From: Romeriopsis navalis LEGE 11480
Lineage (GTDB): Bacteria > Cyanobacteriota > Cyanobacteriia > Leptolyngbyales > Leptolyngbyaceae
Assembly: GCF_015207035.1 (NCBI RefSeq)
Contig: NZ_JADEXQ010000015.1
Coordinates: forward strand, 1 to 64,000
Length of the DNA: 64,000 nt
Direction: 5' to 3'
The notes beneath the pieces were generated by a model. It saw nothing but the letters and a program-made list of their open reading frames with translations. It had not been told where the DNA came from and did no database searches. Shown here in pieces: positions 50,188-53,730 of this stretch. Position numbers and translations under genes: made by a program. Numbering within the stretch: position 1 is the stretch's first letter; each line of letters starts with the position of its first letter.

Positions 50188-53100
50188 ATGTCCAGTCCCC
50201 AGCGTAATCCCCGTGTCCGACGGGGCCGGAAAGCCACGGCCCAAAAGATATCGTTTCAACCATTCCGACGGCTTGCAGTGCTGAAAATTGCATTGCTCTG
50301 CCTCCTTGCGCCATTCCAAATTAGCGGTGCTAAACCACCCACCGAACCATCCCCAAAACTCTCTTCGCAGATTCAGCAAATCGACGATGAACAGGAAAAA
50401 GAACGCGCCTTAGAGTTCCTCAATCAGGTGTTAGCCCCTGCTGTCGAGGGCCTAATTGTCGTAATTGACAACCCCAAAGCCTCCGTTAGTCAACGCATCG
50501 ATGCGATCGAAATTCTCCGCACGATGGGCGCTGATGCCGAAATGGCAGTGCCATCCCTAACGCAAATCCTCAAAATCCGGGATCCAAATCTCCGTTTAGC
50601 CGCGGTCAAAGCCCTCGCAGCAATTGGACCCAAATCAAAATCGGCGGTACCAGAACTCACAAATTTGCTGAAGGATAGCAACGAAAACGTCCGAATTGTC
50701 ACAACCAGTTTGCTGGGACAGCTGGGCCTCGATGCCAAACGAGCGATTCCCAACCTCACCGCCATCCTCGATGATCCCAGCCCCACAGTGCGCAAAAATG
50801 CGATTAAGGCACTAACCGCCATGGGCAATGAGGCGAAGGCCGCCGTACCAGAATTACTCAACGCACTACGCGATCAAAATCCTGAAATTCGGCGGGAAGC
50901 AACGATCGCCCTCGGACGCATGGGCAGTGATGCCAAACCAGCGGTGAATGCCCTCGCTGAAACCCTGAATGATCCAGATAAAAATATTCGCATTAGTGCC
51001 GCCACTGCATTGGGTCGAATTGGCGCAGATGCCAAAGTCGCTGTACCAGAATTAGTCCGCCTGCTCAAAAACAAAGACCCACAATTACGCTCCTTTGCGG
51101 CATTTGCCCTCGGCAAAATTGGCACAGACGCCAAAGCCAGCATTCCAGACCTGACGAAGGCTCTCGATGATCAAAATAAAGATGTTCGGCTGAATGCTGC
51201 CGGTGCATTGGGCCGCATCGGGGTCGAGGCTCGATCGGCCTTACCGCAATTAGTGAAAAATCTACAAGACATCAAAGGGGATGTACGCCTCAATACAGGC
51301 GCCGCGATCAGTCGTATTGCCGGGGCCTTACAGGATCAAGCCGGAGGTCTGCGCAGCCAAGACTTACTCAAAGTCATTGGTCAGCTCGAACAAGCAGCGC
51401 CAATTCTGGAAGATCCAGAACAGGGGTTTAACGAAGACATTCGCGATGCCGTCCGACGCTCCATCAGCGCCCTCAAAACGGAGAAAGATGCCCGCCCTTT
51501 TGATCGGGTGACGGAGTGGTCAAAACGGAACTGGATCCTGACAGCACTTCTGCTCTACGGTACAGTGACCCCCGTCGTTTGGTTAATCATCTTGGGCTGG
51601 AAACCACTGTGGATTCTCAAGATGAATGACACACTGCAGCCCTACACCGATTTTGAGATGCCACTGCCCACCGGGAATTCCCTCAAAATCCCTCTACGGT
51701 TTGTGCTGTTTTTGGGCTGGTTTCACTACCACCCACGGGTGCTCGACGCTTGGGTAGAAAAACAAGTGGGCGTCGCACGGTACGCCTTTGCCCAAAAATC
51801 AACGGTACGGGAGCGTAAAGTACATATCCCCATTCCCGTGGTGCTCCAGGGCAAAACCATCGCCGAACTGGCGAGCCGGAATCTCCACACCACCTTTGGC
51901 GACGGACGACAATGTCTCTTGGTCTGGGGCGAAGGCGGCAGTGGCAAAACCAGCATTGCTTGCTATCTGGGGAAATGGGCCATGGCCAATCGCAAAAATC
52001 AACGGCTCGCCAAACACCGGATGTTACCTGTATTAATCGAGCAAGAACTCGACTTTCGGGTGCCGGCTAACAAAGATCCGTTTCGCGAGGCAATCCGGGG
52101 ACAGTTACAGGCACTGATCGACTCGGCTCATCCCATTTCCGATGATTTTCTCGATCGATTGCTCCGACTGCGCCGCGTGTTAGTCATCGTTGATCACCTG
52201 TCCGAAATGAGTCCCGAAAGCCGGGCAGCAATTCGCCCCGGCCACCCCGACTTCCCGGCCAACGCCTTGATTGTCACTTCCCGGGCCGAGGAATCCCTCG
52301 ATCGCGTCCCCAAAACGGTGATTAAACCGCTGCGCATTGAGGGCAATCGCCTGTCTTCTTTCTTGGAAGCCTACCTCATGAAATGCCAAAAGCGAGAGCT
52401 CTTCACTGACGCCGAATACTTTGATGCCTGCAGCCAGCTTTCCAAAATGGTGGGCCAACGCAACGTCACAGTATTACTGGCCAAACTGTACGCCGAACAA
52501 ATGATTGCCATGAAATCGGGGATTAACGATGGCTTTTTGCCGGACAACATTCCCGACTTGATGCTGAGTTACCTGAACGAACTAAACCGAGACAACAACA
52601 ACCATGAGCCTGAAAATCGTCGCGTCCACCAACTCAGCAAAATCGTCGCCTGGGAGTGCCTCAAGCAAACTTATCGCCCTGCCCCAGCGAAGCGTCAAAC
52701 CATCCTCATTGCCCTGCAACGGGAATTACGAGTTGATGAAACTCAGGCGATCGACTGGCTCAACCACCTGGAAAACAGCCTCCGCATCGTCCATACGGTG
52801 GGGCCAGCTCAAGACCAAATGTGCTTCGCCCTCGATCCCCTCGCAGAATGTCTGGCAGCACTGTATTGGGTGGAACATTATGGCTCTGATGTAGGGGCTT
52901 GGAGCCAGTGGTTTATGCAAGCTGATACCATGCCCGGCAATCCCGATAGCATTCAGGGTTTGCTCCTGGCGATGCGTGACTGCTGCCTCCACCGGAGTGC
53001 CGAAATGGATATTCCCGAATTTGTCTTGGACGAACTCGGTCGGCGGGTGGGCCTCAGCACCGAACTCCTACGCAAATCCCAAGTCGAACAACGCATGGTG

Positions 53101-53730
53101 CGGCTACATCCACGCATCCTCGACGGCGACGTCCCTGTCAGAGTGCGGGCAATCCGCGAATTGGGCGACCTTGGCAATGCCGCAAAGCCCCTATTACCGG
53201 TTTTAGTCCGAGCCTTAGAAGACGAGAATTGGCGTATCCGCTATGAGGTGGCCAAAGCGATCGGGGCCATGGGTATCGAAGCCCGGACAGCGATTCCAGC
53301 ACTGACCGAACGTTTAGTTGATCCAGATCGGCGCGTAGCCTGTGAGGCCATTTCCAGTCTCGGCAAAATTGGGACAGCCTCCATGCCTTGCCTGATCGAT
53401 GCGCTGGAATCACAAATTAGCTATGTCCGCAGCACCGCCGCTTGGGTATTAGCCAGCTTCGAATCGAGTGCGCGGGCGGCCGTGCCATCCCTCATGAATG
53501 CACTCAGCGATCCAGACTGGCAAGTCCAGTGGGTTGCGGCTTACACCCTTGGCTGCATTGGAGCTGACGCAAAACCCGCCGTGTTTCGGCTAATCGATGC
53601 TTGCAAAGGGGATTATGTCCTCGTCGCCAAAGAAGCCAGCCGCGCTCTATGGCGGATTAATGGCGAGGAAGCCGATGCGATCGTGTCTGCGCTTGGCGAT
53701 CGCCAACGACAATCGATGCTGGCCCATTAG
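50188..53730 (+). CDS. Membrane-spanning HEAT-repeat NTPase (NACHT/STAND-like)
   Basis: The product is 1180 aa from the ATG at 50188. Order: a basic N-terminus, then a hydrophobic segment (29-47, LAVLKIALLCLLAPFQISG), about nine HEAT repeats of 33 residues (about 87-385; units such as AVPELTNLLKDSNENVR and LGRIGADAKV), a transmembrane helix (about 448-470, NWILTALLLYGTVTPVVWL), a P-loop NTPase (Walker A GEGGSGKTS at 581-589; Walker B RRVLVIVDHLSE at 662-673), a helical region, and about six further HEAT repeats (about 978-1170). The positive-inside rule puts the first HEAT array outside the cytoplasm and the NTPase inside. STAND/NACHT ATPases are signal switches in defence and regulation; here a sensing role is inferred. 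The neighbours (ndhF, gyrA) give no hint of function. Confidence 0.85.
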   Translation: MSSPQRNPRVRRGRKATAQKISFQPFRRLAVLKIALLCLLAPFQISGAKPPTEPSPKLSSQIQQIDDEQEKERALEFLNQVLAPAVEGLIVVIDNPKASVSQRIDAIEILRTMGADAEMAVPSLTQILKIRDPNLRLAAVKALAAIGPKSKSAVPELTNLLKDSNENVRIVTTSLLGQLGLDAKRAIPNLTAILDDPSPTVRKNAIKALTAMGNEAKAAVPELLNALRDQNPEIRREATIALGRMGSDAKPAVNALAETLNDPDKNIRISAATALGRIGADAKVAVPELVRLLKNKDPQLRSFAAFALGKIGTDAKASIPDLTKALDDQNKDVRLNAAGALGRIGVEARSALPQLVKNLQDIKGDVRLNTGAAISRIAGALQDQAGGLRSQDLLKVIGQLEQAAPILEDPEQGFNEDIRDAVRRSISALKTEKDARPFDRVTEWSKRNWILTALLLYGTVTPVVWLIILGWKPLWILKMNDTLQPYTDFEMPLPTGNSLKIPLRFVLFLGWFHYHPRVLDAWVEKQVGVARYAFAQKSTVRERKVHIPIPVVLQGKTIAELASRNLHTTFGDGRQCLLVWGEGGSGKTSIACYLGKWAMANRKNQRLAKHRMLPVLIEQELDFRVPANKDPFREAIRGQLQALIDSAHPISDDFLDRLLRLRRVLVIVDHLSEMSPESRAAIRPGHPDFPANALIVTSRAEESLDRVPKTVIKPLRIEGNRLSSFLEAYLMKCQKRELFTDAEYFDACSQLSKMVGQRNVTVLLAKLYAEQMIAMKSGINDGFLPDNIPDLMLSYLNELNRDNNNHEPENRRVHQLSKIVAWECLKQTYRPAPAKRQTILIALQRELRVDETQAIDWLNHLENSLRIVHTVGPAQDQMCFALDPLAECLAALYWVEHYGSDVGAWSQWFMQADTMPGNPDSIQGLLLAMRDCCLHRSAEMDIPEFVLDELGRRVGLSTELLRKSQVEQRMVRLHPRILDGDVPVRVRAIRELGDLGNAAKPLLPVLVRALEDENWRIRYEVAKAIGAMGIEARTAIPALTERLVDPDRRVACEAISSLGKIGTASMPCLIDALESQISYVRSTAAWVLASFESSARAAVPSLMNALSDPDWQVQWVAAYTLGCIGADAKPAVFRLIDACKGDYVLVAKEASRALWRINGEEADAIVSALGDRQRQSMLAH

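Follow-up and report, generated by a model that had tools for sequence, protein, structure and literature searches.

A putative receptor-like NACHT/STAND ATPase with a predicted exported HEAT-repeat sensor in the cyanobacterium Romeriopsis navalis

Could a bacterial NTPase switch be controlled from outside the cytoplasm? A gene of Romeriopsis navalis LEGE 11480 raises this question. It lies in the window, the stretch of 64,000 nucleotides that we analysed, as an open reading frame on the plus strand (50188-53730) that encodes 1180 amino acids (coding sequence 50188-53727, stop codon 53728-53730). The ATG at 50188 agrees with the start of related proteins in the alignment. A first, sequence-only reading had described two hydrophobic segments, about nine HEAT units before the second of them, a P-loop and about six further HEAT units at the end, and we recovered each of these elements. 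The protein is ordered as signal peptide, outer HEAT array, transmembrane (TM) helix, NACHT-type NTPase, NCH4 and C-terminal HEAT array. Pfam matched HEAT_2 to eight stretches of the protein (E = 3.2e-68), and repeat anchors are spaced exactly 33 residues apart from residue 120 to residue 285. The N-terminal array (residues ~70-380, 50395-51327; approximately nine units of 33 amino acids) is predicted to be extracytoplasmic and the C-terminal array (residues 976-1165, 53113-53682; approximately six units) cytoplasmic. Two single-sequence AlphaFold runs gave mean pLDDT values of 46.1 and 36.6, too poor for a fold search, and a PDB sequence search matched P-loop and similar fragments only.

We assigned the signal peptide and the TM helix from sequence, using hydropathy and site patterns. 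The first hydrophobic segment (residues 29-47) resembles a cleavable signal peptide, with a basic n-region, an h-region and an AxA-type site cut, by prediction, between SGA and K at 48; this signal-peptide-like N terminus (residues 1-48, 50188-50331) recurs in relatives. The second (450-468, hydropathy 2.14) marks the TM helix (residues 449-474, 51532-51609). Of these two segments of the first reading, the second holds as membrane-spanning, and the first is likely to be cleaved rather than to serve as an anchor, so that the mature protein is probably single-pass, N-out and C-in. A helical stalk defined by the alignment and by region identity (residues 381-448, 51328-51531) leads from the outer array to the membrane, and the TM helix is followed by a juxtamembrane segment (residues 475-560, 51610-51867) that is conserved in the motif table of 25 relatives and bears the signature HYHPRVLDAWV at residues 513-523.

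The same layout recurs among the relatives. A hydropathy peak near the N terminus was present in 20 of the 25 and a single peak, one TM segment, before the P-loop in 24; on visual inspection, the N termini of the others resemble weaker signal peptides, or they are off-frame (L096). In the window protein, the hydropathy scan also weakly marked residues 75-93, where the repeats begin, but with unfavourable transfer energy. Six relatives (L046, L048, L049, L099, L102 and L106) carry a Cys pair and then a Gly directly after the signal peptide, which would be compatible with an oxidising compartment. Hydropathy and site patterns thus yield the layout of a single-pass receptor: signal peptide, outer domain, one TM segment and inner signalling domain. 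The two hydrophobic segments flank the HEAT array instead of being buried within it, and the proposal that the first array faces outwards and the NTPase inwards is, as a prediction, well supported by the recurrent signal peptides, the one TM segment before the NTPase, the Cys pair of some relatives and an exported-type beta-propeller that replaces the HEAT repeats in Rhizobium. The membrane crossed may be the plasma membrane or the thylakoid membrane. In one relative (L093:27-2486, G323), the TM segment is missing in frame and the signal peptide, repeats and NTPase are kept, through either a genuine deletion or an error in the assembly.

The NTPase (residues 561-790, 51868-52557) was delimited by hhalign, the motif table and dN/dS. 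Aligned with a profile built from 14 NACHT proteins that R. navalis itself encodes, the sole profile in this comparison, the core scored a probability of 98.5 and E = 3.5e-15 over 301 columns. In this alignment the two Walker A motifs coincide, VDHLSE lies on the D-G-L-D-E Walker B, the NALIVTSR strand on the VTSR sensor (the sensor R being aligned) and ALDPLAE on the FxH..F.EY winged-helix motif. Walker A is the P-loop GEGGSGKTS at residues 581-589 (51928-51954); 24 of the 25 relatives share GEGGxGKT, and the Rhizobium member has AEGGAGKT. Walker B, VLVIVDHLSEM (residues 664-674, 52177-52209), falls on the NACHT pattern hhhhDGLDE, and in the motif table D669, S672 and E673 are present in all 25 relatives, with Ser at the place of the middle acidic D throughout. 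The Walker B motif had been said to lack its acidic pair. The middle acid is indeed lost, but the final E is there, and the argument for weak hydrolysis was built on a misread motif.

The core stayed below the threshold of the Pfam NACHT model (PF05729), with 14.9 of the required 26.7 bits and 25.7 bits for the best relative. In addition, the LDPLAE motif (residues 882-887, 52831-52848), which aligns to the winged-helix FxH..F.EY, has Leu in 25 of 25 relatives at the position of the His that typifies NACHT proteins. This His contacts ADP in animal NLRs, so the lock on the off state may differ in this family. Beyond it lies NCH4 (PF22731, NACHT C-terminal helical domain 4; residues 915-957, 52930-53058), matched by Pfam at E = 1.4e-18. 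Together with the profile comparison, this domain supports the assignment to the NACHT/STAND ATPases. The genome as a whole contains at least 23 places that match the NACHT model, a large switch repertoire. Among 20 other NACHT proteins of this genome that we examined, L113 (L113:3212-6856, contig C74) combines a signal-peptide-like N terminus with a short outer segment and a TM segment ahead of NACHT, and carries a second P-loop ATPase-like region near its C terminus; in L123 a single TM-like segment precedes NACHT, and L116 shows a single weak pair.

Relatives occurred in 22 of 58 genomes searched (the genome itself, its family and its class), including 18 of 35 from the same family, about half, and most were full-length with 54-60% identity. 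The core was found in 15 of 386 cyanobacterial genomes. Pfam detected NCH4 in 7 of 194 genomes, all of which also have a member of the family of the window protein, and NCH4 thus marks the family in cyanobacteria; its one copy in R. navalis is in the window protein. Some relatives are encoded on plasmids, in Nostoc, Scytonema and Rhizobium, and a search of phages and viral contigs found none. We discarded as spurious one match of 25 residues from the scan of genome contigs (L029). Many relatives are broken (L038, L043, L047, L096, L101, L106 and L108), by frames split in the N-terminal array, an internal stop, truncation beside transposase genes or survival as fragments only, and part of the frame splits may be assembly errors.

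The outer part differs in a plasmid protein of Rhizobium phaseoli (L107, 1266 amino acids). Its signal-peptide-like N terminus is followed by a YCF48-type beta-propeller (PSII_BNR, E = 3.2e-59), a TM segment and, as far as the NCH4 region, the shared core, which hhalign matched at E = 4.9e-39. A beta-propeller here takes the place of the outer HEAT array, indicating that the outer module is exchangeable and the TM-NTPase core constant. Two further relatives (L045 and L100) keep the signal peptide and TM segment with the outer part reduced to a short linker, and forms that end after NCH4, without C-terminal repeats, occur in several families. In the tree, the window clade, which has the C-terminal HEAT array, forms one well-supported group (100/100), and relatives bearing an FGE domain form a separate one (98/97); with the root uncertain, gain of the C-terminal array is likely, not proved. 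One relative (L090:7560-10418, G381) has several near-identical outer repeats in series, suggesting recent duplication of the unit.

Evolutionary rates differ along the protein. Among 13 window-clade proteins, mean pairwise identity was 82% in the NTPase, approximately 70% in the NCH4 region and C-terminal array, and 46% in the N-terminal array. For close pairs, dN/dS was mostly ~0.02-0.03 in the NTPase, 0.04-0.06 in the C-terminal array and 0.11-0.19 in the N-terminal array, values that are rough, as dS was near saturation and infinite in some pairs. The whole protein is under strong purifying selection, and the pattern of rates fits a fixed switch joined to a faster-evolving outer part, all of it constrained.

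In the window, an ndhF-like gene on the minus strand and gyrA flank the gene, which is a lone chromosomal gene in all window-clade members. No conserved operon partner emerged, and no gene was common to most of the relatives' neighbourhoods. Genes adjoining relatives include those for a cysteine-desulfurase-type aminotransferase, a histidine-kinase-type ATPase, transporter parts, a CHASE2 kinase, a UvrA-type protein and an amidohydrolase; PADLOC matches among the neighbours belong to generic kinase, aminotransferase and ATPase families. Around window-clade members, we saw neither a defence island nor defence-specific neighbours. No linked RNA element was found, and counts of promoters and terminators were at chance level.

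We favour, with a probability of about 0.6, a reading in which the protein would be a receptor-like, single-pass STAND ATPase of the NACHT clade whose extracytoplasmic sensor gates a cytoplasmic switch. The Sec signal peptide would, on strong sequence grounds, direct the N-terminal HEAT solenoid into the periplasm or the thylakoid lumen, and the one membrane helix and conserved juxtamembrane segment appear to join it to the cytoplasmic NACHT NTPase, which retains most of its key residues, and to the winged-helix-like and NCH4 regions. The outer solenoid would be the sensor, and ligand binding would alter the packing of the membrane helices; the TM helix and the HYHPRVLDAWV segment would transmit the signal. 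The NTPase, freed from a nucleotide-locked state, would then switch by nucleotide exchange and oligomerise, and the slowly evolving C-terminal HEAT array could dock a cytoplasmic output partner. Since the protein has no built-in enzyme effector, its output would probably be the recruitment of another protein. The receptor reading draws on the frequency of signal-peptide-like N termini (20/25) and of one TM segment before the P-loop (24/25), on the hhalign relationship to NACHT and the NCH4 match, on the variable outer module (propeller in Rhizobium, linker in L045 and L100), on the Cys pairs, on the region rates and on the widespread forms that lack a C-terminal sensor. Against it count the sub-threshold Pfam NACHT score, the Leu at the winged-helix His, the poor AlphaFold models and the absence of the outer array from some relatives.

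The first alternative, which we consider unlikely, is that the protein would be an antiphage bNACHT in which the cytoplasmic C-terminal part acts as the sensor of infection and the membrane part at the N terminus as the effector, disturbing the membrane upon oligomerisation of the NTPase. Relatives with NACHT and NCH domains do act against phage, among them bNACHT25 (PMC12169576), and both the patchy distribution (15 of 386 cyanobacterial genomes) and the several broken relatives, common among costly defence genes, are in keeping with such a role, as is the setting of a Nostoc plasmid relative, which has a MoxR ATPase and a restriction enzyme nearby. However, Pfam, NCBIfam and PADLOC scans revealed no known effector domain, PADLOC had no match to the NTPase core, the neighbours of window-clade members are housekeeping or generic genes, many relatives lack the C-terminal sensor and phage or viral relatives were not found. 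A role in defence, as first suggested for this locus, was therefore not supported. The Nostoc relative in question (L106, Nostoc sp. C057 plasmid p057_J) is split and bears an FGE domain; besides the MoxR ATPase, a SAV_2336-domain protein is encoded nearby, and the restriction enzyme is XcyI.

Quite improbable, in our view, is a part in assembly or scaffolding at the envelope or thylakoid, in which the HEAT arrays would dock partners on either side and the NTPase would power or time assembly instead of serving in sensing. Two repeat arrays predicted on opposite sides of the membrane, strong purifying selection over the whole protein and a lone chromosomal gene throughout the window clade would suit this role, but the gene is missing from roughly half of the same-family genomes, which argues against a core assembly function, and the outer module is a beta-propeller in Rhizobium and absent from some relatives. 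The reading as an ordinary phycobilisome lyase, or as a HEAT protein of phycobilisome degradation, is refuted for practical purposes: the NCBIfam NblB, CpcE and CpcF models match the repeats only, at 103.6 of 300, 89.5 of 330 and 49.7 of 220 bits, far under their curated cut-offs, and the protein has a signal peptide, a TM segment and an NTPase besides.

We compared the window protein with systems described in the literature. Bacterial NACHT proteins are described as consisting of an N-terminal effector, NACHT and a C-terminal sensor (PMC12169576). Like the window protein, bNACHT25 has a NACHT C-terminal helical domain behind its NACHT-type NTPase; its N terminus is a nuclease effector, it is not described as membrane-bound and its helical domain is NCH1 (PMC12169576), whereas the window protein has an exported-type HEAT array and a TM segment in the N-terminal position, and NCH4. 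TM segments accompany NACHT in bNACHT42, which has two at its N terminus, and in the sea-cucumber NLRs AjNLRC4 and AjNLR-new, with AjNLRC4 placing Ig outside and NACHT inside (PMC13133943). As described, these three differ from the window protein in that no signal peptide with a large outer repeat solenoid is reported for them (PMC13133943). In Thiohalocapsa PB-PSB1, NACHT/STAND proteins with C-lectin/FGE tails are diversified by DGRs, and one is predicted to be periplasmic (PMC10907252). Distant family members (L046, L048, L049, L102 and L106) resemble these targets in having a C-terminal FGE domain; in the window protein, HEAT repeats take its place. In loci of 5-17 kb from five FGE-bearing relatives, no second copy was present that would be a DGR template repeat matching the FGE tail, and we set aside a DGR link for want of a local template; reverse transcriptase genes are present elsewhere in their genomes. 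Finally, a STAND protein already characterised in a cyanobacterium is XssQ of Synechocystis, a transcription activator whose role is regulatory and not one in defence (PMC8205485); we liken it to the window protein by description, and it differs in its N-terminal DNA-binding domain and in having no described membrane part (PMC8205485). In the open-access literature, we found no report of a signal peptide and large outer repeat sensor before a NACHT core, which is weak evidence of absence.

STAND/NACHT switches have mainly been described as cytosolic with a C-terminal sensor, and an exported N-terminal sensor is unusual. We tentatively propose, at a little under even odds, a bacterial receptor-NACHT class in which an exported, swappable sensor, either a HEAT solenoid or a beta-propeller, directly gates NACHT across a single helix. 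Since these two modules replace each other before the same core, domain swaps would test the idea directly. If true, a STAND ATPase would do in this class what the kinase does in sensor kinases, and outside-in signalling through a bacterial NACHT switch would be a layout to place beside sensor kinases and receptor cyclases.
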